From positions 1 through 37,055 of the IMG/VR virus record IMGVR_UViG_3300037114_000288: 37,055 bases of DNA; one strand, given 5' to 3'. Positions 3,676 to 37,055 of the stretch are shown in pieces. The notes under the pieces were generated by a model, which was not told the DNA's origin, searched no databases, and worked only from the letters and a program-made list of their open reading frames with translations. The translations under genes were made by a program, and so were the position numbers. How positions within the stretch are numbered: position 1 is the stretch's first letter; each line of letters opens with the position of its first letter. Source of the DNA: a virus.

Positions 3676-5955
3676 TTAGGCTGCCGTCGCGTTGCCGCCG
3701 TCGATCACGGTCCCGTCATAGACAGGCGTGTATGGCGTGCCGGTGATCGTGTTCGTCGGTGAGCCGCCGGGAGGCGTGTAGTTGAAGGTCACCGAGTACT
3801 GCTGCGTGCTGTTGCCGTTGTCGTTCGTCGAATAGAGCGTCATCGTGACGGCGCCGGTGTAGTCGAGCTCCACCGTCGCGGTCGGAGTCCCGATGTTGCT
3901 CATCGTCGCGAGCAGGCCGCTCGAGCCGGTGAAGGTCAGGCAATACCGCGTATTGAGCTCAGGCGTCACGGTCGCGGCCGTCTGATCCACCAACTGATCG
4001 CCCTGGGTGAGGCGATTGCGCTCCCGCCACGCGACAGTGAAGGAGCCACTGACCGAGGTCACAAGATCCCAGCGCGTCCCGGCGATGGTGAGATAGGCAG
4101 GCGGGTACGGGAGCGCCGCGCGACCGTGCATGACGATCGAGATAACCGGGGCCGACGCCTGATTGAGCGCGCCCGTTCCGGTGACCGGCGCCGGCGTCAT
4201 TTCTACAGTTTCGCTCGGGGTGTACTGCACCCCGTCCGTGCCGCCGTAGACCCCATCGAGGAAGAAGATCGCGGTGCCCGAGCCGTGCGCGGCGGGGAGC
4301 GTGTCGACGCATCCGCGCAGGATGCCGAGCGTGTTCGTCGTGAGATTGATCGAGGTCACTTTGACCACCTCGATCACCGTGTCGACAATGATCGCCTGCG
4401 TGCCGACGACGATCTCGTCCAGGTCGAGCCCGCTCTGCAGTGTGACCGAGGCATCGAAAGGCTGGCACGAGGCCGCGAGCTGCGCGTACGGGGTGAATTG
4501 CCCGTTCGCGTAGTCAGTCGGGGCGGCCGGTGAGACGTAGGCCCAAACCTGCCAATAAATTTGCAGCCCGTTAGGGCGCGCTACGCCGAGCATGTCGTAA
4601 CAGGTCGTGGCGGCGTAGGCGTTGCTTGCGAACAGGCGCTGGATGTCCCGGTAGCTCATCTCCTCGCCGTGGAACAGCGTCGGCACGACCGGATTGCCGT
4701 TGGGCGCTGCCCAGCCGGTGACCGGAATCGAGACATAGCTCGCCGCGGGCAGGCTGAAAACATCCTGCAGCGACGTGATCGTGATCGCGCTCGAGGTCAC
4801 GCTGCCGTAATCGCAATCTCCGACGCGCATCACAAGGGAATTGATGCCGTACGCCGGGAAATTCAGCACGAAGAGATCCCCAGGGACAAGCGTCCAGGCG
4901 TTGCGGTCGAGCTTGAACTGCACCTTCTTGAGCGCCGTCGAGAGCCGCGCGAGATCGCGTTGCGCAATGCGCAGCGCCAGGTCAGCGGTGGCTATCCCGG
5001 GATAGTCCTTCTTTTGCGTGACGACGACGCCTTGAGCCTGCACGGCGCCGAGTGCCTGCACCGAGACAGCCTGCTCACCACCGTAGGTCGCCCCGCCGAT
5101 CGTGGGATCAACGTAGGTGATCACGAGCTCGTTCACCGTGCCGGTGATCGTCGGCGCCTCGTAGGAGGTAAACTCAAGCACGTTGTCCTGGTCGTAGACC
5201 GGGAGCGTGGAAACGTCGTAGCCGCCGCGTAAGAGCGTCAGATTAAAGAGCCCGGTCTGACGATCCGTGATCAGGATTCCGTCGATGTAATCCATGATGT
5301 CCTGCAGGAAGGACTCGATGGTGTCGTGCCGATCCCATAGGAGACACAGCCCGAGCCCTTCCGTGTACATCTGCGTCGCCGCCGCGAGGAATGAGGTCGT
5401 GTCGATCTGCGATGGCGGATAGCCCAGACCCCAGTCGGAATTCGTCAGGCACTCGTAGACGATGTGCGCCGCATTCATTCCGACGACGCCTGAGCTGAGC
5501 GTTATCGCAGCCTGCGACGGATTCCACGGCGTGCCGCCCTGCCAACCTGCTGTCGTGCGCCTGACGCGAAAGCTCCAGGGCTTCGGGTACGGGTTATTGG
5601 CACCGACCATGCCGCCCTCGTACACGACGGTCGAGATGCCCCGATAGGCCGGCTGCGGCGAACCTTGCTGCGCGGTGAGGTAGCCATTCGGCATCTGTGT
5701 TGGATCGCCAGCCATCAGGTCAATCTGACCCTGTATGCCGCCCTCGCGCTGCGGGCCACCGAACAGATACGAATTGACGATTTGAAACGAGCCGCTGCCG
5801 ACCTGTGTACCGGCCCACGCCGTGCGCTGACCGCAGCGAATCTCGAGCAATCCGTCCGACACCGGTGCGCCCGAATACGGCACGAGCGAGTGACACAGGC
5901 CAAAGTGCAGGCCCATGTAGTACTCGTACCCTGAGACGTTGCCACCGCCGCCCAT
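3676..5955 (-). CDS. Tail tip attachment protein (lambda gpJ-like / Phage-tail_3 type, 759 aa)
   Basis: The largest tail-tip gene after the tape measure. N-terminal and central regions match the phage tail protein family that builds the central fibre or baseplate hub. Recognisable features are an MNAAHIVYECLTNSDWGLGY segment, a following SFLAAATQMYTEGLGLCLLWD region, and an LVPGDLFVLNFP segment, all typical of the host-specificity J/TipJ family. The C-terminal third is beta-rich and probably reaches the receptor. Shorter than lambda J (over 1100 aa). ATG at 5955 has GGGAG upstream and a 1-nt TGATG overlap with the 68-aa gene. Confidence 0.82.
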   Translation of the reverse strand: MGGGGNVSGYEYYMGLHFGLCHSLVPYSGAPVSDGLLEIRCGQRTAWAGTQVGSGSFQIVNSYLFGGPQREGGIQGQIDLMAGDPTQMPNGYLTAQQGSPQPAYRGISTVVYEGGMVGANNPYPKPWSFRVRRTTAGWQGGTPWNPSQAAITLSSGVVGMNAAHIVYECLTNSDWGLGYPPSQIDTTSFLAAATQMYTEGLGLCLLWDRHDTIESFLQDIMDYIDGILITDRQTGLFNLTLLRGGYDVSTLPVYDQDNVLEFTSYEAPTITGTVNELVITYVDPTIGGATYGGEQAVSVQALGAVQAQGVVVTQKKDYPGIATADLALRIAQRDLARLSTALKKVQFKLDRNAWTLVPGDLFVLNFPAYGINSLVMRVGDCDYGSVTSSAITITSLQDVFSLPAASYVSIPVTGWAAPNGNPVVPTLFHGEEMSYRDIQRLFASNAYAATTCYDMLGVARPNGLQIYWQVWAYVSPAAPTDYANGQFTPYAQLAASCQPFDASVTLQSGLDLDEIVVGTQAIIVDTVIEVVKVTSINLTTNTLGILRGCVDTLPAAHGSGTAIFFLDGVYGGTDGVQYTPSETVEMTPAPVTGTGALNQASAPVISIVMHGRAALPYPPAYLTIAGTRWDLVTSVSGSFTVAWRERNRLTQGDQLVDQTAATVTPELNTRYCLTFTGSSGLLATMSNIGTPTATVELDYTGAVTMTLYSTNDNGNSTQQYSVTFNYTPPGGSPTNTITGTPYTPVYDGTVIDGGNATAA

Positions 5956-27861: not shown

Positions 27862-28254
27862 ATGATAGCCATGCGAGCGCTGATTCTTGTTTGCGCACTG
27901 GCCGCGCTGGCCGGCTGCGCTACTGCGCCGAGTCCAGAGGTCAAGACCGCTGCGCTCGACCCGTTGGTCTGCGTGAACAAGGCGCAGTGCGACCTGTACT
28001 GGAAGCGCGCGAAAATCTGGATCGTCAACAACAGCGCCTGGCGCATCCAGCAGGCCGACGACGTGGTCATCACGACTTTCGGGCCAACCGAGTCGAGCGC
28101 GAACCTGGCGTATTCCGTGATGATGGAACCCAGCTCCGGCGACTCCGCACGCATCCGCATTAAGGCGATATGCGCGAACGCGTTCGGGTGCGAGATGCAC
28201 CCTATGGCAGCGGCCGCGGCATTTAAGAGCTACGTCCGCAGCGGCGCGTCGTGA
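27862..28254 (+). CDS. Prophage lipoprotein 2 (130 aa)
   Basis: ATG 27862, 3 nt after the stop of lipoprotein 1; AAGGA lies 11 nt upstream. Signal peptide with lipobox LAGC (Cys19), Ala at +2. The mature region has CVNKAQCDLYWKRAKIWIVN and a C-terminal CANAFGCEMH, Cys pairs that may form disulfides, and WRIQQADDVVITTFGP, a pattern seen in small bacterial/phage lipoproteins. Forms a two-gene unit with lipoprotein 1. Likely periplasm-facing outer-membrane protein. Confidence 0.75.
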   Translation: MIAMRALILVCALAALAGCATAPSPEVKTAALDPLVCVNKAQCDLYWKRAKIWIVNNSAWRIQQADDVVITTFGPTESSANLAYSVMMEPSSGDSARIRIKAICANAFGCEMHPMAAAAAFKSYVRSGAS

Positions 28255-28271
28255 AATAAGTTGATTCGCAG

Positions 28272-28287
28272 CCCGCAGACACGCGGG
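28272..28287. terminator. Hairpin between convergent lipoprotein and cro-like genes
   Basis: CCCGC-AGACAC-GCGGG inverted repeat (5-bp arms) in the 63-bp gap between converging genes, followed by a second weak stem CCGC...GCGG (28289-28305). No clean U-run on either side, so it is at best a weak bidirectional terminator. If the minus-strand early transcript must reach the replication genes, it has to read through this site. Confidence 0.35.
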
Positions 28288-28317
28288 ACCGCCTTTGCTT
28301 TGCGGCAAGAACACGAA

Positions 28318-28545
28318 CTAAGCCCGCGCGCCGGCCTGGCCGCGCGGTGTGTTCAAGCTATTCAGCAGTCCAGGGGTGAGCGCGATCTCTTTCCGAGAGG
28401 CAGCGGCAATCACCGCGTCCCACGACTCCGGCGGGATGCGGTTGCGCTGAGCCCACTTCGCCACTGCCTGGTAATCCTTCCCGATGTCCCTGGCCATGTC
28501 CGCAAGTGAGGGCCAGATCCCAAAAACGTCAGCCAGCTCTCGCAT
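28318..28545 (-). CDS. Cro-like regulator (75 aa), leaderless
   Basis: MRELADVFGIWPSLADMARD, then IGKDYQAVAKWAQRNRIPPE and a helix, a small HTH protein of the Cro/YdaS-like or carph-isopro type. The promoter (TTGCAT, 17 bp, TATAAC) lies so close that the transcript would start at or next to the A of ATG 28545, with no ribosome-binding site between: a leaderless mRNA. Divergent from the CI-like gene and first gene of the minus-strand early transcript, matching lambda cro. The C-terminus ends with TPRGQAGARA. Confidence 0.72.
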   Translation of the reverse strand: MRELADVFGIWPSLADMARDIGKDYQAVAKWAQRNRIPPESWDAVIAAASRKEIALTPGLLNSLNTPRGQAGARA

Positions 28546-28552
28546 GGAGCCC

Positions 28553-28581
28553 GTTATATCGTGGACGATTAATCCATGCAA
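28553..28581 (-). promoter_or_regulatory. PR-type promoter for the cro-like gene
   Basis: Minus strand: -35 TTGCAT (28581-28576), 17-bp spacer, -10 TATAAC (28558-28553). The expected start point lies at or 1 nt before the ATG at 28545. Operator O1 sits in the spacer, so repressor binding would block RNA polymerase. Confidence 0.65.
28562..28576 (+). promoter_or_regulatory. Operator O1 (TGGACGATTAATCCA) in cro promoter
   Basis: 15-bp imperfect palindrome between -35 and -10 of the cro-like promoter, and touching the start codon of the CI-like gene. Matches O2 in 14 of 15 positions. A related half-site (TGGACGA) begins 23 bp further on at 28585, the same spacing as between O2 and O3. Confidence 0.7.
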
Positions 28582-28941
28582 GAGTGGACGAGAACGCAAC
28601 TGACGCACGTCACACCCGATGTGACGATTTCGGTCGTGCGTCCGCTCAAATCCGTTACCCCTACGCAGTACCGGCGTGCCTTTTTTGGGCGCGTAAAGGC
28701 CGCCCGAATCCGCTCTAGCCGCTCGGCTGCTGAAATGGCCCGGCTTCTCGATGTCCCTAAGGACACGTACCATCGATACGAGACGCGGACGCTCCTCCCG
28801 CACCATCTGGTCGAAGTGTTCTGCAGGCTCACAGGCGAGGAGATCGATTGGCTCATTACGGGACGCCGGCGCTCAGATGGACTTCGGCCAGGAATTGAGC
28901 CAGGCGCAGATCCTGGAGCTGCTGCAGAATCCCCACGGTAG
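28576..28941 (+). CDS. CI-like repressor without peptidase domain (121 aa)
   Basis: HTH region about residues 38-72 (FGRVKAARIRSSRSAAEMAR, then LLDVPKDTYHRYETRTLLPH), similar to XRE/CI-type proteins; continues with LVEVFCRLTGEEIDWLITGR. The usual C-terminal S24 self-cleavage domain is absent, so induction by RecA-type cleavage is not expected. ATG 28576 overlaps O1, which implies autoregulation. No ribosome-binding site upstream, so the start is uncertain (GTG 28621 is in frame). A short alternative frame (MDFGQELSQAQILELL, 28877 on) overlaps its end. Confidence 0.72.
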   Translation: MQEWTRTQLTHVTPDVTISVVRPLKSVTPTQYRRAFFGRVKAARIRSSRSAAEMARLLDVPKDTYHRYETRTLLPHHLVEVFCRLTGEEIDWLITGRRRSDGLRPGIEPGADPGAAAESPR

Positions 28942-28952
28942 CGATTGACATA

Positions 28953-28969
28953 AGCACCCCTCAGGTGCT
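28953..28969 (+). terminator. Hairpin after CI-like gene
   Basis: AGCACC-CCTCA-GGTGCT, a perfect 6-bp stem with a 5-nt loop, 11 nt after the repressor stop and before O2. No U-run follows, so termination strength is unknown; it may insulate the repressor gene from the early promoter. Confidence 0.4.
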
Positions 28970-28989
28970 ACTGAGACACCGTTCAAGCA

Positions 28990-29004
28990 TGGACGATTAA
29001 TCCT
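28990..29004 (+). promoter_or_regulatory. Operator O2 (TGGACGATTAATCCT)
   Basis: Just upstream of, and touching, the -35 box of the plus-strand early promoter. Differs from O1 at the last base only. Starts 23 bp before O3. Confidence 0.7.
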
Positions 29005-29033
29005 TGACGGCGTGGACGATGCGTCCATAAGAT
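29004..29033 (+). promoter_or_regulatory. PL-type early promoter
   Basis: -35 TTGACG (29004-29009) and -10 TAAGAT (29028-29033) with an 18-bp spacer (or ATAAGA with 17 bp). O3 lies exactly in the spacer and O2 adjoins the -35 box. It drives the chain of small genes, recombination genes and probably the integration module, all in the + direction, matching lambda PL. Confidence 0.7.
29013..29027 (+). promoter_or_regulatory. Operator O3 (TGGACGATGCGTCCA)
   Basis: Perfect palindromic arms TGGAC / GTCCA around GATGC, in the spacer of the early promoter. It is the most symmetric of the sites and defines the likely consensus. Confidence 0.72.
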
Positions 29034-29058
29034 GCTTCCCTTGCACCTGGGAGGCCTC

Positions 29059-29259
29059 ATGTTCACCGCCAAATCCAATCCTTCGCCCGCCACGCTTCCC
29101 GTAGCTCCTACGCATGCGCAATTGCATGCGGCGCTGAAGTTCGCGCAGGCGCGCGTCAATGCCTTCATCGCTGACGGCGCGCTCGACCAGGTGCGGCGCG
29201 GGAGCGGTTTAGGCGGCCGCAAGTTGCGCGCTGTCAGTGCCAAAGCGGTGCAGTCATGA
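29059..29259 (+). CDS. Early small protein 1 (66 aa)
   Basis: ATG 29059 with GGGAGG directly upstream; a longer start at 29032 would lie inside the promoter. Contains AQLHAALKFAQARVNAFIAD, an amphipathic helix, and a basic C-terminus. First gene of the early transcript. No family recognised. The end overlaps the next gene (ATGA). Confidence 0.6.
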   Translation: MFTAKSNPSPATLPVAPTHAQLHAALKFAQARVNAFIADGALDQVRRGSGLGGRKLRAVSAKAVQS

Positions 29260-29459
29260 GCACCAATCACACAGCCGGACCGACGATCGACCTGCGTAGC
29301 CCGTTGACCGCAGCGAGGGACGTGCGCGCGCTGCTCATCGAGCGGGCGGAGCTGCTGGATGCGCTGCGCGACATCGTAAGTGGATTTAAGCGCGGTTACA
29401 CCGCGACGCAGATGCGCGCTATCGCCAGCGCCGCCATAGCCAAGGCGGAGCAGCTATGA
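29256..29459 (+). CDS. Early small protein 2 (67 aa)
   Basis: Overlaps its neighbours by ATGA on both sides. Helical, Ala/Arg-rich (SPLTAARDVRALLIERAELL, then DALRDIVSGF), with a long C-terminal helix. Unknown function. Small early phage proteins of this kind often act on host enzymes, but nothing specific is seen here. Confidence 0.58.
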   Translation: MSTNHTAGPTIDLRSPLTAARDVRALLIERAELLDALRDIVSGFKRGYTATQMRAIASAAIAKAEQL

Positions 29460-29626
29460 GCAACACCGTTGTCGTGCGCGAGTATCACGGCGCTTGGCTG
29501 GTGTGCATCCCCGGTCTGCCAAGCAACGCGTGTTGGTCATCTCACGAGGCGCTGTCAGAGGCCGAAGCTGAGGCAGCGAGCTTGGTTGAGGATATGGGGT
29601 ACGACCGCTATGTGGTGCAGCTATGA
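29456..29626 (+). CDS. Early small protein 3 (56 aa)
   Basis: ATG 29456 (ATGA overlap) to TGA 29626, next gene overlapping as ATGA. Product MSNTVVVREYHGAWLVCIPG, then an acidic helix (EALSEAEAEAASLVEDMGYD), with a likely small alpha/beta fold. Unknown function. Confidence 0.58.
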   Translation: MSNTVVVREYHGAWLVCIPGLPSNACWSSHEALSEAEAEAASLVEDMGYDRYVVQL

Positions 29627-29805
29627 GCCGCTACACCATTTTGCAAAATCGCGCCATCCGTCTATTCGACGAGCTCGTGCTCCTGCGAGCACAGGCCAAG
29701 CGCACGCCGCCGACCGAGCGGCCGCAGATAAATCAGCGCGCGCGCGAGATTCACGACGATCTGAAACTCACGCTCGCGCAGCAGCGCAGCGGCCTGCCAA
29801 CGTGA
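29623..29805 (+). CDS. Early small protein 4 (60 aa)
   Basis: ATGA overlap with the previous gene and GTGA with the next. Helical, with SRYTILQNRAIRLFDELVLL followed by a Lys/Arg-rich loop and REIHDDLKLTLAQQRSG. No recognised domain. Confidence 0.58.
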   Translation: MSRYTILQNRAIRLFDELVLLRAQAKRTPPTERPQINQRAREIHDDLKLTLAQQRSGLPT

Positions 29806-29909
29806 GTCGCGAGCAGCGGACATGGCTCATGCTGCTCGCGCTGCTCGTCATTGCGATCGGTATCGGCATCGCAGCGGTGCAGTTCGGGCGCCTGCTCGCT
29901 CAGGCATGA
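29802..29909 (+). CDS. 35-aa membrane mini-protein
   Basis: GTG 29802 to TGA 29909, overlapping both neighbours by 4 bp. Product MSREQRTWLMLLALLVIAIG continues as one transmembrane helix with a short tail. Coupled translation on both sides suggests it is real. Confidence 0.55.
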   Translation: MSREQRTWLMLLALLVIAIGIGIAAVQFGRLLAQA

Positions 29910-30088
29910 CCTGGTCTCACGCCTCAGCCCTCGTGTGCCTGCTGGGCGCGATCGCCTGCGCGCTCTACGTGCGCTATGCCGCGAAACCGAAACGCAATCG
30001 CCGCCGGCGCCCGCATTACCGCGCCGGCGAACTGCCGCCCCCCTCCGATAGGTGTCAACGCAACTCAGTAGAGGCCGCCCCACGATGA
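29906..30088 (+). CDS. 60-aa membrane-anchored basic protein
   Basis: ATG 29906 (ATGA overlap) and ATGA overlap into the exonuclease gene. N-terminal hydrophobic segment (about residues 6-24) followed by a very basic stretch (KPKRNRRRRPHYRAGE) and a Pro-rich tail. Likely inner-membrane with cytoplasmic basic region. Function unknown. Confidence 0.55.
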   Translation: MTWSHASALVCLLGAIACALYVRYAAKPKRNRRRRPHYRAGELPPPSDRCQRNSVEAAPR

Positions 30089-30963
30089 GCCGCAGGAACA
30101 AGTCAACGGCGCGGCTGATCGAGATCGGCGCGGATGCATACGAGCGCGATCCGTGCAAGGTCCCATCGCTCTCGGCCTCGATCGCGAAGATCATCGTTTC
30201 ACTGAGCCCGGCGCATGCCTACGCCGCGCACCCGAAGCTCGGGGGCGTCTACACACCGACCGATCCGACTGGACCGCAAGCGAAAGGCATCATCCTGCAC
30301 AAGCTCTTGCTCGGCCGCGGCTCGACCGTTGTGTCTTGCCCGTTCGATGACTGGCGCACAAATGCGGCGAAAGACATGCGCGACGCCGCGCTGAAACAGC
30401 GCAAGGTCCCCGTGCTCGCCGGCAAGCTCGAGGCGCTTGAGAAAGTCGCCGAGCGGATCCTCGATTCGCTGCGCGGCTGCGGTTACGAATTCACGGGGCT
30501 GTCGGAAGCGACGATCACCTGGCAAGAAAAAGACGCGAGCGGTGAGATCGTCCATTGCCGCGCGCGGCTCGACCATCTGTTACTCGCCGACGGTCATATC
30601 CTCGATCTCAAGAGCGCGGCCGATGCAAGTCCGCGAGCGGTAGGCCGGCGCGTCATCGACATGGGCTCAGACATCCAGCAGACGGCCTACAAGCGCGCGG
30701 TCGAGGCGTTGAGGCCCGAGCTCGTCGGGCGCAGCAAATTTACATTCCTGTTTTTCGAGACCGATCCGCCCTTCGCGGTCGTCCCGATCGAGCTCGACGG
30801 TCAGTTCGAGGAGATCGGACGCATGCGATGGGAACAGGCCAAAGAGGTATGGGCTCGGTGTCTAAAATCCGGGCGCTGGCCGGCGTACTCGAACGGCGAG
30901 ACCGTCACCGTTTCGCCGCCGCCGTGGATCCTCAATGAGCATATCGGGAACTGGAGCGCATGA
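30085..30963 (+). CDS. PD-(D/E)XK exonuclease (RecE/Cas4-like, 292 aa)
   Basis: Recombination nuclease, likely a 5'-3' exonuclease that works with the downstream annealase/ATPase. Core motif: RLDHLLLADGHILDLKSA with D163, D174 and K176, and a following DIQQTAYKRAV with Gln198/199, as in RecB/lambda-Exo-type nucleases and the DUF3799 group. An N-terminal region of about 130 residues has SLSASIAKIIVSLSPAHAY. ATG 30085 overlaps the previous stop (ATGA). The pair with a Sak4-type ATPase matches phage recombination cassettes. Confidence 0.78.
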   Translation: MSRRNKSTARLIEIGADAYERDPCKVPSLSASIAKIIVSLSPAHAYAAHPKLGGVYTPTDPTGPQAKGIILHKLLLGRGSTVVSCPFDDWRTNAAKDMRDAALKQRKVPVLAGKLEALEKVAERILDSLRGCGYEFTGLSEATITWQEKDASGEIVHCRARLDHLLLADGHILDLKSAADASPRAVGRRVIDMGSDIQQTAYKRAVEALRPELVGRSKFTFLFFETDPPFAVVPIELDGQFEEIGRMRWEQAKEVWARCLKSGRWPAYSNGETVTVSPPPWILNEHIGNWSA

Positions 30964-32123
30964 AGAAAAGCGCCCGCAAGTTCGCGAGCAAGCCTGCGAA
31001 GCGTGAGGCTGTCGGTCTCTTGATCGGCCTGGTCGGCCCGTCTGGCGTAGGCAAGACATTTTCCGGGCTGCGCCTGGCGACCGGCATGCAGCGCGTCGCC
31101 GGCGGCGAGATTGGCGTCGTCGACACCGAGTCGCGGCGCGCGCTCGCGTACGCCGACGATTTCAAATTCGAGCACGTCGATTTCCGGGCGCCGTTCGGGC
31201 CGCTCGACTACAAGGATGCGCTCGCGCAAACGGTCGACAGCGGCGCGCGCATCATCATGATCGACAGCGCGAGCCATGAGCATGAAGGCGAAGGTGGCGT
31301 GCTCGACATGCACGATGCGGAGGTCGATCGCATGGCCGGCGACGACTTTGCGAAGCGCGAGCGCGTCAAGATGGCCGCGTGGATCAAACCGAAGTCCGAG
31401 CGCCGCGCGTTTATCAATGCGCTCGTGCAGTGCAATCGACACGTCATCCTTTGCTTTCGCGCAAAGGAAAAAATCAAGATCGCCCGCGGCAAAGATCCCG
31501 AGCCGCTCGGCTGGCAGATCATCGGAAGCGAGGAGCTGAGTTACGAGCTCACCTTGCAATTTCTCCTGAAACCAGGCGCGAAAGGCGTTCCGACCTGGTC
31601 GTCCGAGCTCGAGAGCGAACGCGCGCTCATGAAGGTCCCGCGCCAGTTCGCTGACTGGTTCGGCGGCGAGCCGAAGCAAATTGACGAGGATCTCGGCGAG
31701 CGCCTGGCGCAATGGGCGCGCGGCGATACGCTCCCGCGCGCGACCGTTCGAGCCGAGAAGGCCGCGGCCGCGATGAGCTCCTCGGTCGACGAGCTCGTCG
31801 CAGACTACGACAAGTGCAGCGAGCAGCGCCGTTTTAAGGCGCTCGAGGATCGCCGCACAGCGCTATGGAAGAAGGCCACGCCGCCCGCTGACAAGGCGCG
31901 CATGAAGTCGGCCAGCGACGCTGCGATCAAGCGCATGGCGTCCCCGCCGGCCGAATGGAAGAAGCGGTTCGGCGCGGCGAGGACGCGCAAGGATCTCGAA
32001 ACGGCGTGGAAGGAATGCCTCCGCGAGCATGCGAACCAGGTGCCGCTCGATACTGAGGTTTTCTACACCGATCGCCGCGAGGCAATCGAGGAACGCGAGG
32101 CGATCGCGGCCGGTGCCGCGTGA
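30960..32123 (+). CDS. Sak4-like RecA-fold recombination ATPase (387 aa)
   Basis: ATP-binding protein probably acting as single-strand annealing/exchange factor. Walker A GPSGVGKT at 26-33 and Walker B IIMIDS at 98-103 (IIMIDSASHEHEGEGG). ATGA overlap with the exonuclease gene. The C-terminal part (about 270-387) is Ala/Lys/Arg-rich and helical, longer than usual for Sak4, and may be an interaction domain. Neighbouring exonuclease supports a recombination role. Confidence 0.75.
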   Translation: MKKSARKFASKPAKREAVGLLIGLVGPSGVGKTFSGLRLATGMQRVAGGEIGVVDTESRRALAYADDFKFEHVDFRAPFGPLDYKDALAQTVDSGARIIMIDSASHEHEGEGGVLDMHDAEVDRMAGDDFAKRERVKMAAWIKPKSERRAFINALVQCNRHVILCFRAKEKIKIARGKDPEPLGWQIIGSEELSYELTLQFLLKPGAKGVPTWSSELESERALMKVPRQFADWFGGEPKQIDEDLGERLAQWARGDTLPRATVRAEKAAAAMSSSVDELVADYDKCSEQRRFKALEDRRTALWKKATPPADKARMKSASDAAIKRMASPPAEWKKRFGAARTRKDLETAWKECLREHANQVPLDTEVFYTDRREAIEEREAIAAGAA

Positions 32124-32263
32124 AGCCCTGGAGCAAGCGCCGGCGCGACCGGATGCTCGCGCTCGCGCGTTACTTCGACGGCCTGGCGATGAGCATCCGC
32201 TCGAAGGTCCGCGCCCATACTCCGCGAAGGGCAGAGAAACCCAAGCTGGTGAAGGCGGCGTGA
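32120..32263 (+). CDS. Basic 47-aa protein after recombination ATPase
   Basis: GTG 32120 overlaps the previous stop (GTGA), TGA at 32263. Product MKPWSKRRRDRMLALARYFD, then a basic helical region. Highly charged; may bind nucleic acid. No family recognised. The consistent 4-bp overlap supports translation. Confidence 0.5.
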   Translation: MKPWSKRRRDRMLALARYFDGLAMSIRSKVRAHTPRRAEKPKLVKAA

Positions 32264-32296
32264 TCACATTGAAATTAAACCGCAAGGAGATTGAAA

Positions 32297-32614
32297 GTGA
32301 ATGAACAGAAACTTGATGAGCGCCAGGCCCGCCAGGGCGACGTGCTCTTGGTGCGTACTGCTGACAGCGCGCAGGTCGCGCCCGCAGACAAGCCAGTCGT
32401 GCTGAAACTCGGCGAAGCGACCGGGCACAAGCATCAGTTCATGGCCGAGTCGCGCGTGAGTTATCTCGGCAACACCGCGCCCGTACTGGTGGGCGCGCCG
32501 AGCTTGCTTAGGCACGATGAACATACTGAGGCGCCAGTCCGTGAGGGTATTTACGACATGCCTAACCAGGTGGAATTCACGGATGAGCAGGATGTTCGCG
32601 TGGTGGCTGACTGA
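32297..32614 (+). CDS. Phage protein of the RQGDVLL type, partner of DUF6745-like protein (105 aa)
   Basis: GTG 32297 preceded by AAGGAG with 7-nt spacing; TTG 32291 is too close to the site. Has RQGDVLLVRTADSAQ, LGEATGHKHQFM and HEGY-type TEAPVREGIYDMPNQVEF, a family often placed directly before DUF6745-like proteins in phage genomes. Exact function unknown; it ends 1 nt before the next ATG, so the two are probably co-translated. Confidence 0.68.
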   Translation: MNEQKLDERQARQGDVLLVRTADSAQVAPADKPVVLKLGEATGHKHQFMAESRVSYLGNTAPVLVGAPSLLRHDEHTEAPVREGIYDMPNQVEFTDEQDVRVVAD

Positions 32615-32615
32615 C

Positions 32616-34106
32616 ATGGCAACCAAATCCAAAATCATCCGCCGCCCCGATCGCGCCGAAGGCGGCATCACACCCCAAGAGAAGCAGCTCATGAATGAGC
32701 ACGCTTCCTCCTGGATCGCCAACGCCATGCGCACCGATACCGTGGACCGTGAGGCTTTGACGCAGGCGGCCAAAGACCTCTATCGCGTCTCCGGGCGCGC
32801 TGAGCCCATCGTCGTCATCGTACCAAGCCCGCGCATCATGGCGTTTGCCGGGGGCTTTGCGGCGGCGATCTGGCACCTTCGTAAAAACGGCGATGCCGCG
32901 ACCGATGCCGCGACCCGTGCCGCGACCCGTGCCGCGACCCGTGACGCGACCTATGCCGCGACCGATGCCGCGACCCGTGCCGCGACCGATGCCGCGACCG
33001 ATGCCGCGACCGATGCCGCGACCTATGACGCGGCCCGTGCCGCGACCCGTGCCGCGACCTATGCCGCGACCTATGCCGCGACCGATGCCGCGACCTATGA
33101 CGCGACCTATGCCGCGACCCGTGCCGCGACCGATGCCGCGACCGATGCCGCGACCGATGCCGCGACCGATGCCGCGACCGATGCCGCGACCTATGACGCG
33201 ACCGATGCCGCGACCGATGCCGCGACCGATGCCGCGACCTATGACGCGACCGATGCCGCGACCGATGCCGCGACCTATGACGCGACCTATGACGCGACCG
33301 ATGCCGCGACCGATGCCGTAACATCGCTCTTCGCGCGGATTGCGACCCAGATACTGGGGCCGAAGCACGCGGTTTTTGGGTTGAAGTGTGCAACGCTTTG
33401 GCACAGGTACTACCAAGGCGGCAACATGTGGTCGGCGTACGACTGCTATCTCACCGCCGCGCGCGACATCCTGGGGCTGCGGCTTCCAAGCCACGAGGCG
33501 TACAGCGCATGGGAGCGCTGCGCAAGAAATGGCGGCTTCCGCCTGGTACACGAGAAGTTCTGTATGGTGTCGGACTTCCCGGAACGCCTGTGCGTCGATG
33601 AACAAAACCGCCCTCACAGTGAAGACGGCCCCTCGCACCGCTGGCGCGATGGCTGGTCGCTCTATCATTGGCACGGTGTGCGCGTCACCGAGCAGATCAT
33701 CGAACGCCCGCAGACGCTGACCGTCGGAGAAATTGAGGCGGAGCAAAACGCCGAAGTGCGGCGCGTGATGATCCAGCGTTACGGCACGGCGCGGTATCTG
33801 AAAGACTCCAACGCGCAGATCGTCCACGAACTGCCAGACAACTACTACGTCAAGGGTCTGCAGGGCGCGAAGCTATATCGCAAGCCGCGCAAGGATGATT
33901 CTGACATCGTTATGATCGCGGTGAAGAACTCCACCGACGAGCCAGATGGCAGCACGAAGGAATACATGCTACGCGTTCAGCCCGACGCCTACAGCGGCGC
34001 GGCTTCCAAGGACTGTCATGCCGCGATGGCGTCCACCTGGCGAAAGCACGACGGTACGCTGTACTTCGCGAAGCCGAAGGACTACGCGCCGAGTTGGGAG
34101 AGTTAG
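32616..34106 (+). CDS. DUF6745-type phage protein with 36 tetrapeptide repeats (496 aa)
   Basis: C-terminal half (about 270-496) matches the DUF6745 type: GWSLYHWHGVRVTEQIIE, LTVGEIEAEQNAEVRRVMIQ, RYGTARYL, and NSTDEPDGSTKEYMLRV. Residues 93-236 are 36 consecutive tetrapeptides of form (D/R/Y)(A/D)AT. Family function is unknown. The repeat region is expected to be helical or to form a solenoid, with the first position of each unit alternating Asp, Arg and Tyr. Frequent in actinobacterial and proteobacterial phages and islands. ATG 32616 is 1 nt after the previous stop. Confidence 0.72.
   Translation: MATKSKIIRRPDRAEGGITPQEKQLMNEHASSWIANAMRTDTVDREALTQAAKDLYRVSGRAEPIVVIVPSPRIMAFAGGFAAAIWHLRKNGDAATDAATRAATRAATRDATYAATDAATRAATDAATDAATDAATYDAARAATRAATYAATYAATDAATYDATYAATRAATDAATDAATDAATDAATDAATYDATDAATDAATDAATYDATDAATDAATYDATYDATDAATDAVTSLFARIATQILGPKHAVFGLKCATLWHRYYQGGNMWSAYDCYLTAARDILGLRLPSHEAYSAWERCARNGGFRLVHEKFCMVSDFPERLCVDEQNRPHSEDGPSHRWRDGWSLYHWHGVRVTEQIIERPQTLTVGEIEAEQNAEVRRVMIQRYGTARYLKDSNAQIVHELPDNYYVKGLQGAKLYRKPRKDDSDIVMIAVKNSTDEPDGSTKEYMLRVQPDAYSGAASKDCHAAMASTWRKHDGTLYFAKPKDYAPSWES
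32892..33323 (+). repeat. 36-unit 12-bp tandem repeat (gatgccgcgacc type)
   Basis: 432 bp of near-identical 12-bp units inside the DUF6745-like gene. Units differ mainly in the first codon (GAT, CGT or TAT) and in the second (GCC or GAC), while the rest is nearly invariant. Because 12 is a multiple of 3, all frames on both strands stay open, which creates long false frames. Copy number may vary between relatives by slippage or recombination. Confidence 0.85.
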
Positions 34107-34118
34107 CCTGGTTAGTGA

Positions 34119-34394
34119 GAAGGCGCGTGTGCCAACTCGGATGCCGCTGGGAAACAGGATTGGCGGCTTCCGACGATCAAGGAGCTGCTCAGCATCGTCG
34201 ATTATTCGCGCACGAGTCCTGCGATCGACATCGAGCCCTTCCGGTGCGAGTCGTCCTGGTATTGGACGTCAACGCCGTACGCAGGGTCCCCTGCGGCGGA
34301 CGCGTGGATCGTCAACTTCGGCAACGGCTACTCGGGCTGGGACGTCCGGGGCTACGAGGCCTACGTGCGTGCCGTCCGCGCCGGTCAGATGTAG
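34119..34394 (+). pseudogene. 5'-truncated Lcl/DUF1566-type gene remnant
   Basis: From 34119, after a stop at 34116-34118, the frame reads GACANSDAAG, then QDWRLPTIKELLSIVDYSRT and YWTSTPYAG, WIVNFGNGYSGWD and EAYVRAVRAGQM, ending at TAG 34394. This is the C-terminal part of an Lcl/DUF1566-type (C-type-lectin-like) protein. There is no start codon or ribosome-binding site in the frame before WRLP, and the N-terminus is missing. Best read as a remnant left by recombination; a frameshifted upstream part was not found. Confidence 0.62.
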
Positions 34395-34403
34395 GACTTT
34401 CAG

Positions 34404-34580
34404 ATGCCTGTTAAAACGCACGGAAGAACTCGCCCGGCGGCTCGCTGCATGAACGCCGGCCACTTCTCGCATGCGGACTCATGGAATCTGCGGCGATCGT
34501 TTCGGCTGCGGTATCCGTGGCTTCGCGATGCACTGGCTGGCACGCGGGCAGCAGTGCGCGCGAGCGAGGATCTGTTTTGA
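34404..34580 (+). CDS. Possible 58-aa basic protein
   Basis: ATG 34404 to TGA 34580, with an internal ATG at 34449 giving MNAGHFSHADSWNLRRSFRL. Arg-rich with two Trp residues. The TTGA overlap with the start of the DUF4326 gene and the 9-nt gap after the Lcl remnant fit the operon style. No recognised family; kept at modest confidence. Confidence 0.4.
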   Translation: MPVKTHGRTRPAARCMNAGHFSHADSWNLRRSFRLRYPWLRDALAGTRAAVRASEDLF

Positions 34581-34891
34581 ACCCGCAGCGCGTGCAGCTC
34601 CAGCGCGCCAAAGGTTGGCGCATGCCGGCAAACACCCTGAAGGTGGACCGGTCGACCCCATGGGGGAATCCTTTTTGCGTCGGTGACGAAGGCGTGCCAG
34701 ACGCGACCGCGGCCGTCAGGCTTTTCCGCAAGCTGCTCGAGCACGATGGGATCGACGCGAATCACAGCCTCTTCGTGTTCACGAAGGAACGTCTGAAGGC
34801 GGATCTCGCAGGGAAAAATCTCGCGTGCTGGTGCGCACCAGATAAGCCGTGCCACGCGGATGTGCTGCTGGAGATCGCTAATGCAGGCTGA
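34577..34891 (+). CDS. DUF4326-type phage protein (104 aa)
   Basis: TTG 34577, with AGGA 7 nt upstream, overlapping the previous TGA as TTGA. Motifs PQRVQLQRAKGWRMPANTLK, STPWGNPF and LAGKNLACWCAPDKPCHADV match the DUF4326 family, with its WC-x-PCHAD signature. Family function unknown; small phage and host proteins of this group are often near DNA-metabolism genes. Its end overlaps the next gene start by 11 bp. Confidence 0.78.
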   Translation: MNPQRVQLQRAKGWRMPANTLKVDRSTPWGNPFCVGDEGVPDATAAVRLFRKLLEHDGIDANHSLFVFTKERLKADLAGKNLACWCAPDKPCHADVLLEIANAG

Positions 34892-35348
34892 GACCATCGG
34901 CCTCGAGGAAGCGGCCAGGGTCCTGCGCATGGCGCCATCAACTTTGCGCAAGCGCGCCGCGGCGGGGATCATTATTGGTTACAAGCCCGGTCGTCGCTGG
35001 GTTTTCATCCAGGGTGAACTCCCAGCGCCGCGTGCCGCAAGACAATTGCGCGATCCGGAACGCAAGGCTCGCGAGACAGCCAGATGGCGAGAACTGCGCC
35101 CGAGGCGCGCAGAATATTTCTCATGGCATCGCGCGTCGAAGGCTCTGCGCACTCCGTCATGGTCGAATAGAGATGCGGTGCGCGCGTTCTACGTAATCGC
35201 GCGCCGGGCCACTGACTGCACTGGCATCCCGCATGCCGTCGATCACGTCTATCCATTGCATGGCAAAGAGGTAAGTGGCCTGCACGTCCCGGAGAACCTT
35301 CGCGTGCTGCCGCGACATCTCAATCAGTCGAAGGGAAACCGGCTGTGA
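34881..35348 (+). CDS. HTH-HNH endonuclease (Xis-type DNA-binding domain fused to HNH), 155 aa
   Basis: N-terminal residues 5-46 form an excisionase-type HTH (IGLEEAARVLRMAPSTLRKR, then PGRRWVFIQGEL). The C-terminal part is an HNH nuclease: IPHAVDHVYPLHGKEVSGLH with DH at 121-122, ENLRVLP with N139, and NQSKGN with N148. The HTH resembles the adjacent Xis in spacing and residues (EAA, TLRK, GRRWVF). ATG 34881 has GGAG 8 nt upstream. Possible role: a nuclease aimed at the same DNA sites as Xis; alternatively a homing-type element. Confidence 0.78.
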   Translation: MQAETIGLEEAARVLRMAPSTLRKRAAAGIIIGYKPGRRWVFIQGELPAPRAARQLRDPERKARETARWRELRPRRAEYFSWHRASKALRTPSWSNRDAVRAFYVIARRATDCTGIPHAVDHVYPLHGKEVSGLHVPENLRVLPRHLNQSKGNRL

Positions 35349-35695
35349 ATACGCTCGATCTGCGGGAGGCGGCAGCGCTTGCCAAGTGCAGCCCCGACAC
35401 CCTCCGCAAGATGGCCGCCTCCCGCGAGGTGCCGAGTACCAAGATCGGGCGCAGGTGGGTATTCTCAGCCGCACAACTCCAAGAATGGATCGAGGCGCGA
35501 TGCCGCTCTATCGCCGTGGCCGAAGTCCCTACTGGTGGGTCCGGATTGGCCGAAAGACTCGCAAATCGACGCGGACAGCGGACCGCGCGCAGGCCGAAGA
35601 ATTCGAGCGCGTCCTCAAGGAGCGGCTCTGGCGGCGCACCAAGCTCGGGGACCGTGGTGCAGTTTCCTGGAGCGAAGCATCCCAGCGCTGGCTGA
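35345..35695 (+). CDS. Excisionase (Xis-like), 116 aa
   Basis: GTG 35345 overlaps the previous stop (GTGA). HTH of MerR/excisionase type at residues 3-50 (LDLREAAALAKCSPDTLRKM, then IGRRWVFSAAQLQEWIEARC), followed by a Gly/Ser/Arg-rich tail. It overlaps the integrase start by 196 bp in another frame, a common arrangement of these phages. Directs integrase toward excision. The tail is less constrained, and the true stop may allow some drift. Confidence 0.75.
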   Translation: MNTLDLREAAALAKCSPDTLRKMAASREVPSTKIGRRWVFSAAQLQEWIEARCRSIAVAEVPTGGSGLAERLANRRGQRTARRPKNSSASSRSGSGGAPSSGTVVQFPGAKHPSAG

Positions 35696-36492
35696 ACGAC
35701 TCCGCGCGCGCACGCAAGCGTGATCGGGCAATCCTCGAATGGCTGCAATCCGACCTGGGCGAGCAGTCAGTCTCCGCAGTAGCCGACGCCGATGTGCTCG
35801 AGGAGCTGCGCAAGAACGGGCTCGCCGATGGCTGGAGCCATTCCACCGTTGACCGGATGATGCGCACCGTGCGCGCTGTGCTACGGGCGTGTGTGCGCTG
35901 GCGCTACCTGGAGTCCATCCCTCACATACCGATGTATGGGGAGCCGGAGAGCGAGCCGCGCTTCCTGACCGAGGCGCAGTTCAAGCGTCTGTGCGAGGAG
36001 TTGCCGGAGCACCTGGCGCTCGCGGCGCGCTTCGCTGTGCTGACGCTGCTGCGGATGCGCGCTCAAAGTGGGCTCAAGTGGGACAGGGTGGACTTGAAGG
36101 GCCGGCGGGCGTGGGTGCCGCGCGGGCAGATGAAGGGCGCGAAGAGCTTTGGGTTTCCGCTCTCGGACGAGGCGGTGAAGGTGCTGAAGGCGGCGCGCCG
36201 GCTGATGCCAGACAGAACGCTCATTTTCGGCCAGGCGAACCTGAACACGAAAGCCTTCAGGGCGGCCGCGAAGCGGGCCGGGATCGAAGGGCTGAGATGG
36301 CACGACCTGCGCCACACGGGGGCGTCCTGGGCGGTGCAGCGCGGCGTGCCGCTGCCTGAACTGATGGCGCTCGGGGACTGGAAGAGCTACCGGATGGTCC
36401 TGCGCTACGCCCACCTGGCGCCGTCCAACGCTGCCGCGGCGGCGCGCGCGGTGGGGTCAGCGGTCAATTCTGCATTGAGGAAACGAAAATGA
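35500..36492 (+). CDS. Tyrosine integrase (330 aa)
   Basis: ATG 35500 with GAGG 5 nt upstream, inside the xis gene. N-terminal arm-type domain (PLYRRGRSPYWWVRIGRKTR), a core-binding helical domain at about 55-145, and a catalytic domain with R185 (LTLLRMRAQS), K215 (QMKGAKSFG), H268/R271 (RWHDLRHTG), W294 in place of the usual second His (LGDWKS) and Y303 (LRYAHLAP). Integrates and excises the phage at att. It ends in an ATGA overlap with the HNH gene. Confidence 0.92.
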   Translation: MPLYRRGRSPYWWVRIGRKTRKSTRTADRAQAEEFERVLKERLWRRTKLGDRGAVSWSEASQRWLNDSARARKRDRAILEWLQSDLGEQSVSAVADADVLEELRKNGLADGWSHSTVDRMMRTVRAVLRACVRWRYLESIPHIPMYGEPESEPRFLTEAQFKRLCEELPEHLALAARFAVLTLLRMRAQSGLKWDRVDLKGRRAWVPRGQMKGAKSFGFPLSDEAVKVLKAARRLMPDRTLIFGQANLNTKAFRAAAKRAGIEGLRWHDLRHTGASWAVQRGVPLPELMALGDWKSYRMVLRYAHLAPSNAAAAARAVGSAVNSALRKRK

Positions 36493-37055
36493 CGGTCGGA
36501 GTCTACAAGCGGGGAGAGTTCTGGTGGTATCGGGTCGGGCGCCATATTCGCCGTAGCAGCGGATCTAAGAGCATGGAAGACGCGCTCATTCTCCGCGCTC
36601 GCGCTCTGGCGGCCCAAAACCGCAGGATGATCGAAGAGGACTGGAAGCGGGAGGTGGACTCTCAAGGAGAGAGCGCCAGAAGCTGGCTGCGGCGCACTTA
36701 CGCCAGTATCCAAAAGCGAAGTCGGCTGCGGGGGTGGGCGAGCTGTCTCACGATTGAAGAGTTGGCGAATGTGCTTATGCAATCGGGCGGCCGATGCGCG
36801 CTCACCGGGATCAAGCTGGTGATCGATGCCAAGAAGCGCGATCCCTTCGCAATCAGCGTAGATCGCATCGACAGCACGCTTGGCTACTGCTACGGAAACG
36901 TGCGTCTCGTCTCACTAGCCGTAAATCTCGCGATGTCTCACTGGGGAGAAGACGCGCTATTGACCATTTCAAAGGCTCTCGTCGGACGTGAACTGCTGAA
37001 AACGTTGAACGTTGGTGGGTACATGGATATCCGTACAGGAGGATCTGAAAAGTGA
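36489..37055 (+). CDS. Int-arm-like domain fused to HNH/EndoVII-type nuclease (188 aa)
   Basis: Overlaps the integrase stop as ATGA and ends at the window border. Residues 5-24 (VYKRGEFWWYRVGRHIRRSS) resemble the arm domain of the neighbouring integrase (YRRGRSPYWWVRIGRKTRKS). C-terminal nuclease: RCALTGIKL, then ISVDRIDSTLGYCYGNVRLV, with D125/R126/D128, N137 and N146, of His-Me-finger/EndoVII type. Not seen here as a standalone integrase fragment: it has no tyrosine recombinase core. Function unknown; possible att-directed nuclease or homing element. Confidence 0.75.
   Translation: MTVGVYKRGEFWWYRVGRHIRRSSGSKSMEDALILRARALAAQNRRMIEEDWKREVDSQGESARSWLRRTYASIQKRSRLRGWASCLTIEELANVLMQSGGRCALTGIKLVIDAKKRDPFAISVDRIDSTLGYCYGNVRLVSLAVNLAMSHWGEDALLTISKALVGRELLKTLNVGGYMDIRTGGSEK

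Follow-up and report, generated by a model that had tools for sequence, protein, structure and literature searches.

Why would a temperate phage carry, on either side of its excisionase and integrase genes, two nucleases that resemble these same proteins in their DNA-binding domains? This question is raised by the end of a linear virus contig of 37,055 bases (IMG/VR record IMGVR_UViG_3300037114_000288), analysed at full length and called the window below, where four genes, here named H1, Xis, Int and H2, follow each other on one strand (Table 1). A preliminary description, made from the sequence alone, had given the order H1-Xis-Int-H2 with each gene overlapping the next, and the open reading frames (ORFs) and their coordinates agree with it; the overlaps measure 4, 196 and 4 bases. 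Our answer centres on H2. Nucleases of many unrelated phages have taken on the DNA-address domain of the adjacent integrase, and we assign a probability of about 0.5 to the reading that H2 is a free-standing homing-type nuclease which is directed to the arm sites of the attachment (att) region and travels with the integrase-att module.

Within the window, the local alignment of H1 with Xis scores 93 (shuffle mean 30, standard deviation 5) and that of the first 60 residues of H2 with the first 60 of Int scores 69 (shuffle mean 26, standard deviation 5). Neither value is reached by any of 2000 shuffles. The two similarities pointed out in the preliminary description, i.e., of the helix-turn-helix of H1 to Xis and of the H2 N-terminus to the arm region of Int, hold up on these scores. 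They are also reflected in the Pfam family HTH_17, which is found in both H1 and Xis, and in a fold match of H2 to the arm domain of lambda Int. The control pairs (H1 vs. Int, H2 vs. Xis, and the nuclease part of H1 vs. that of H2) give scores expected by chance, and no duplication is seen at the DNA level, such that the domain copies in the window are not recent. Two candidate histories were rejected on these grounds, namely that the ends of xis and int were recently duplicated in tandem, given zero DNA similarity, and that the H1 and H2 nucleases share an origin, given their chance-level score.

The rear half of H2 matches phage endonuclease families. A profile search of solved structures leads to PacI (E=0.013) with an identical D-R-Y-N-R-N spacing, and the AlphaFold2 model of H2 (predicted local distance difference test, pLDDT, of 86.6) finds its best match in the same enzyme (3LDY, Z 8.7, root-mean-square deviation 3.7, 109 residues), ahead of the matches that follow. 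The respective residues D125, R126, Y133, N137, R139 and N146 are invariant across 20 aligned H2-type proteins with an arm-like N-terminus (called arm-HNHs in the following). Since the overall identity of these proteins is low, this argues for selection on catalysis in the family. For PacI, it is a tyrosine and not the HNH histidine that is placed to act as general base (PMC4081073), and by analogy Y133 would be its counterpart in H2. A dead nuclease, i.e., a DRID motif without its histidine, was rejected as a candidate because PacI has the same arrangement and is active. The preliminary description had assigned both nucleases to the His-Me finger type. This stands for H1 with its DH-N-N HNH motif, while H2 has no canonical HNH histidine and belongs there only in the broad beta-beta-alpha-metal sense, as its motif D-R-I-D..GY..N.R......N is that of PacI. 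From sequence and model, we regard H2 as a predicted PacI-type nuclease of the beta-beta-alpha-metal kind (HNH superfamily).

Structure prediction, named in the preliminary description as a check, also agrees with the proposed N-terminal domains. Residues 1-46 of H2 match the N-terminal domain of lambda integrase (1KJK, Z 5.2, 45 residues) as well as the lambda Int structures 1Z1B (Z 4.6) and 2WCC, the latter on P'2 DNA (Z 4.0), and the helix of the H1 model matches Xis structures. With a Z of 5.0, a plant AP2 domain fits H2 about equally well. That is, the folds would also suit phage HNH genes of the usual sort, equipped with generic DNA-binding domains, whose likeness to Int and Xis comes from widely shared folds (an AP2-like sheet and a MerR-type helix) and from placement by chance: the arm domain of Int has the same fold as AP2, homing endonucleases of the AP2-HNH kind have been described (PMC10448857), and for H1 such an origin is possible because H1-type cores are scattered over unrelated positions in numerous phages. 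What generic domains do not lead one to expect are the linkage to int and the fit to the own integrase throughout widely differing arm types, both reported below. Overall, we give this explanation only a slim chance, and for H2 it is strongly disfavoured. The arm identity of the H2 N-domain rests more on the cross-phage sequence matching than on the Z values. Among the model libraries, the Pfam arm-domain model matches neither H2 nor the other 19 members, nor the N-terminus of the window's Int, and for the H2 family Pfam offers no informative model and NCBIfam no model. PHROG 3322 matches all 20 aligned arm-HNHs, and for L129, L135 and L165 its N-terminal positions fall on the arm region in the alignment.

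To which extent does the H2 build recur? With H1 or H2 alone as query, no relatives were found among viral contigs, and a first genome scan found none either. The family surfaced only after two loci had been reached through relatives of the integrase, i.e., L007, whose H2 relative is 46% identical and overlaps int by the same 4 bp, and L024 (44% identity). Searching with H2 and these two relatives led to L095/L096, where an H2-like core has a front end of another kind and the neighbouring integrase carries a lambda-type arm domain (PF09003). The N-terminus of L095/L096 was classed as lambda-like by eye; its score with the own integrase is at chance. A core alignment search of viral contigs yielded 80 viral loci, and in many of them the same core was found behind an N-terminus of the own-integrase kind, directly after the integrase, e.g., in L122, L128, L142, L114 and L151. 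Including the window's relatives, such a pairing was seen in about twenty other phages, for the most part with an N-domain of the type present in the own integrase. Four loci from a second genome scan were rejected, as their frames show integrases sharing the arm motif, not nucleases. Samples of 398 and 391 whole genomes yielded no member, which shows little because no positive control was included, and searches of cultured phages and plasmids gave the nuclease core only, with the arm domain absent. Among the 20 close integrase relatives for which enough sequence exists, about 3 carry the gene, i.e., its presence is patchy.

The linkage to the integrase was assessed for 58 non-redundant proteins with enough N-terminus, where an N-terminus was called arm-like only on the basis of the integrases of other loci. 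An integrase is located directly upstream for 19/22 arm-like N-termini vs. 6/36 other N-termini (Fisher p=2e-7); the counts are 16/19 vs. 5/35 when the four seed loci are left out. H2-family genes overlap int by 4 bp or follow it after gaps of a few bases, and co-transcription with int is probable. Other arrangements are seen in L110, where the nuclease gene lies 1.35 kb from its integrase, and in L146, where it lies beside an integrase on the other strand.

We also compared for 23 pairs the nuclease N-terminus with the respective own integrase. The summed z of 205.9 is not reached by any of 100,000 permutations, the highest of which gives 122.6. In 8/23 pairs, the own integrase ranks first; several other N-termini are matched better by a different integrase that shares the arm type. 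Only the N-terminus of the integrase takes part in the likeness (median z 6.4 vs. -0.1 for the remainder), and the nuclease core shows no resemblance to the integrase (median z 0.3). Furthermore, the similarity of N-domains to each other tracks the similarity of the integrase N-domains (rho 0.34, p=1e-4), which persists after controlling for either the nuclease core or the catalytic part of the integrase, while no relation to the own nuclease core is observed (rho -0.04, Mantel p=0.63). That is, the N-domain follows the integrase N-domain and not its own core and has thus been acquired repeatedly, through exchange with the adjacent integrase or as a copy of its domain.

The position relative to the att sites was studied in relatives. 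In L024, L095, L123 and L129/L136, the gene ends about 45-60 bp from an att core or tRNA, i.e., 60 bp before an apparent tRNA 3' half at the contig end in L024 (tRNA-Thr by eye), 59 bp before a tRNA-Leu in L123, about 49 bp before a tRNA 3' half in L095 (tRNA-Pro by eye), and 47 bp before a sequence common with the mutS start, taken as att core, in the Pseudomonas-type prophages L129 and L136. The latter can be related to Pseudomonas phage phiAH14a, whose integrase gene is 84% identical at the DNA level up to some 20 bp from the stop and which has the same core and no nuclease gene. Here, the order is int, putative arm sites, same core: a perfect 13-bp repeat, TGTCTAATACTAC, has one copy past the core and another spanning the int stop codon, along with an inverted near-copy, which is the pattern one would expect of arm-type sites. 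In L129/L136, a one-mismatch version of it, AGTATTGGACA, and an inverted partner are found within the final codons of the nuclease gene (for a single match of this kind, shuffles give a probability of 0.002). From this comparison, the gene lies between int and the putative arm sites.

The chimeric build, the linkage to int, the matching and exchange of arm domains, the position and the conserved PacI-type residues are most simply accounted for by homing, since the nuclease would use the address of the integrase and would be protected by its own insertion. In detail, PacI-type phage nucleases have repeatedly acquired the arm-binding domain of the adjacent integrase in copy. With this domain, the enzyme would reach the arm-type sites in the attachment region of its own phage, where it would cut near the boundary of int and arm sites. 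Because the gene lies at this very boundary, as seen in several relatives, it would separate the two halves of the target, such that a phage with the gene would be protected by the insertion between int end and arm sites. Phages of the same integrase type without the gene would be cut and then repaired with the gene as template. Binding of arm sites, cutting and homing are thereby what we infer for the H2 family.

Beside homing, the shared address would also serve an Odn-like exclusion. This is the main rival, since Odn shows that such chimeras exist and can be weapons. The nuclease, expressed with Int, would cut attP in phages or satellites that enter with the same arm type and block their integration, and the resident would be spared by having its arms split between attL and attR. 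Odn of phage ICP1 cuts PLE origins via a RepA-like domain (PMC8263062), coliphage nucleases mirror the RepA_N variants of satellites (PMC10448857), and an arm address in common with the own integrase together with the probable int co-transcription would fit a contest for one attachment site. However, the phage's own attP, formed at excision, would be a target as well, and no immunity gene was seen. Furthermore, the exact location between int and arm sites is dispensable for exclusion, while homing requires it. We consider exclusion possible, albeit rather unlikely.

The operon and address held in common with Int, as well as a core without the usual HNH histidine, could also point to an accessory or regulator of recombination, which would compete with Int at the arm sites or nick there, so as to tune integration or excision, and whose nuclease activity could be weak or lost. 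Such a role is hard to reconcile with the full PacI-type residue set that is invariant in 20 proteins of low identity, and most close integrase relatives are without the gene and evidently manage. It is thus rated as improbable.

Several observations weigh against homing by the H2 family. L107 and L133 are located behind an integrase and have an N-terminus without match, and L111 and L126 show, by eye, an AP2-like C-terminal stretch in place of the arm domain. The comparison of loci with and without the gene consists of one pair with 84% identical integrases, and the arm sites are read from repeats and remain putative. The predicted arm domain of H2 spans about 45 residues only and its fold match is modest (Z 5.2). 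Furthermore, the window's own att region is beyond the contig and off view, because the last base of the contig is that of the H2 stop codon; ARAGORN reports zero tRNAs in the window and Rfam gives no match within 28000-37055. Finally, H1 is without recurrence.

The N-terminus of H1 matches Pfam HTH_17 with E=1e-5 and 26.2 bits, i.e., just below the curated cut-off of 27 (Xis: 4e-12), and the protein matches phrog_26577 (8.5e-16) and phrog_1035, endonuclease VII (3.4e-7), with an intact DH...N...N motif (D121, H122, N139, N148). Its helix belongs to the Xis type that accompanies this clade of integrases and is 47-57% identical to the Xis of related phages vs. 43% to the own Xis. In the H1 model (pLDDT 78, nuclease part weak with about 50), the helix takes the form of the MerR/Xis winged helix, with BldC (Z 7.4) ahead of Pukovnik Xis and RdfS (6.0) and lambda Xis (5.8); for Xis structures, Z ranges from 5.1 to 6.0. 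PADLOC provides only a weak match, to this helix, and none for H2. H1-type HNH cores are common and found in unrelated genomic places of many phages. Among the 89 H1-type ORFs of the fetched loci, i.e., the best 80 of at least 552 from an H1-type scan, that of the window is the only fusion of an Xis helix to HNH, such that the symmetric layout is a single observed case.

Nucleases without the helix do stand at the same place. An H1-type nuclease precedes xis/int in L191 (2941-3462) and L230 (2821-3231), and the slot before xis holds a well supported RecA-dependent nuclease in L002 (3280-3852) as well as weak, sub-threshold matches to GIY-YIG in L005 (3445-3843) and to YbcO in L007 (3445-3849). 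Differing nuclease-like genes thus occupy the slot before xis/int among relatives, which gives it the look of a landing place for nucleases. H1 could be a second, unrelated HNH which captured an Xis-type winged helix in this nuclease-prone slot, and, as a single case, may act likewise on Xis or arm DNA. What the preliminary description had presented as a symmetric four-gene layout is therefore real in the window and unrepeated in the other fetched loci, and it may go back to two separate captures. Its further suggestion, that both nucleases may be guided to att sites, is strongly supported for H2, short of proof, by the recurrence, the matching of arm types and the position between int and att, while no support was found for H1. 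It is doubtful that there is a general class of att-addressed nucleases that repeatedly copied the DNA-binding domains of their own phage's recombination proteins, with a widespread integrase-arm family and an Xis-helix counterpart, in which the two enzymes of the window could act together on both kinds of arm sites of competing attachment regions.

The coordinates of the four genes and their parts are collected in Table 1. The window is the contig of a tailed temperate phage, with the tail, head and packaging genes on the opposite strand.

Table 1. Genes and domains at the end of the window (positions of the 37,055-base stretch)
Feature	Position	Strand	Basis
H1, 155 amino acids	34881..35348	+	ORF; Xis-type winged helix and HNH (endonuclease VII-like) nuclease
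H1 winged-helix domain, residues 1-50	34881..35030	+	HTH_17; model match to Xis structures, BldC
H1 HNH motif D121 H122 ... N139 ... N148	35241..35324	+	invariant in five H1-type proteins
Xis (excisionase), GTG start, 116 amino acids	35345..35695	+	HTH_17 4e-12; phrog_1840 excisionase 2.8e-10
Int, tyrosine recombinase, 330 amino acids	35500..36492	+	PF00589 1.7e-23; alignment with relatives L002-L007
Int N-terminal arm-binding-type domain, about residues 1-50	35500..35649	+	alignment with H2
H2, 188 amino acids, integrase-arm-like domain and PacI-type nuclease	36489..37055	+	
H2 arm-like domain, residues 1-46	36489..36626	+	Int N-terminus score; fold match 1KJK/1Z1B/2WCC
H2 nuclease core, residues 65-165	36681..36983	+	profile core; PacI match
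H2 putative active-site stretch D125 R126 ... Y133 ... N137. R139 ... N146	36861..36926	+	invariant in 20 arm-HNHs; PacI spacing

Some further features of the window were recorded. Within the 196 bases shared with int, the C-terminal tail of Xis is read in another frame. This tail, GGS.LAARLASQRAQR..., is similar in L002-L007, which have the same overlap, and the overlap may thus code in two frames. A DUF4326 protein (PF14216, 2.3e-23; 34481-34891) directly precedes H1 with an 11-base overlap. Positions 32517-34106 hold a 529-residue ORF with a long in-frame run of AATR/AATD/AATY repeats, corresponding to a 12-base-like DNA repeat.

Among the other loci, L123 has an arm-type HNH gene (4734-5339) next to att, for which no integrase was found in the locus, on the side of apparent lysis genes. 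In L095 (5357-5401), an 18-bp inverted repeat (89% complementary) spans the nuclease stop codon beside the tRNA 3' half, and might possibly represent arm-type sites. HNH genes with an AP2-like C-terminus (by eye) lie beside an integrase in L111-L113 (4878-5687) and L126 (4782-5510). A relative of the nuclease core is found directly behind a Qat anti-phage gene set in L099 (3959-4504), i.e., on the Sphingopyxis plasmid NZ_CP009453.1. Finally, L004 (5246-6118), L006 (1738-2619) and L015 (5264-6181) show a second, different tyrosine-recombinase-like ORF soon after the att-side end of int.

If homing or a related use of the arm address holds true, the family would provide a natural toolkit of attachment-site nucleases, the address of each being predictable from the neighbouring integrase, and would mark a conflict arena of temperate phages over integration sites. 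A specific reading is also suggested for a PHROG that is annotated only as 'endonuclease'.

With regard to known systems, PacI is closest to H2 in its core (top fold match, identical residue spacing). In contrast to H2, it is a restriction enzyme with zinc-bound motifs and has no integrase-like domain. The free-standing homing endonucleases of T-even phages (Seg/Mob type) are likewise optional nuclease genes between conserved genes near their presumed target, and we know of no member of that type that takes its DNA-binding domain from an integrase. The annotation of PHROG 3322 mentions neither an integrase-arm domain nor linkage to int. For H1, lambda Xis, RdfS and Pukovnik Xis have the same winged-helix fold as its N-terminus, while H1 continues into an HNH nuclease.

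The AP2-HNH proteins (IPA-HNH, PMC10448857) resemble H2 in combining HNH with a small three-stranded DNA-binding domain of the fold common to AP2 and Int arm domains. Their AP2 domain, however, is C-terminal and unmatched to a neighbouring gene, whereas in the H2 type the domain stands at the N-terminus and changes along with the integrase, and its gene is linked to int. Odn (ICP1 Gp88) is a homing-type nuclease that bears the origin-binding domain of a rival and cuts that origin (PMC8263062). Both Odn and H2 are small phage nucleases whose N-terminal domain copies the DNA-binding domain of another, site-specific protein and, for H2 presumably, inherits its address. The two differ in the nuclease (T5orf172/GIY-YIG-like in Odn, PacI-type HNH in H2), in the source of the copy, i.e., RepA of a hostile satellite vs. 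the integrase arm domain of the own phage, and in the address, which is an origin for Odn and would be att for the H2 family, where many integrase types are matched. H2 has the copied DNA-binding domain of an Odn-type chimera, taken from the own integrase and not from a hostile element. No description of an integrase-arm or Xis nuclease was found in searches of the open-access literature aimed at such proteins. This suggests that the integrase-arm nuclease family has apparently gone unnoticed before, while its working principle has precedents in Odn and AP2-HNH.

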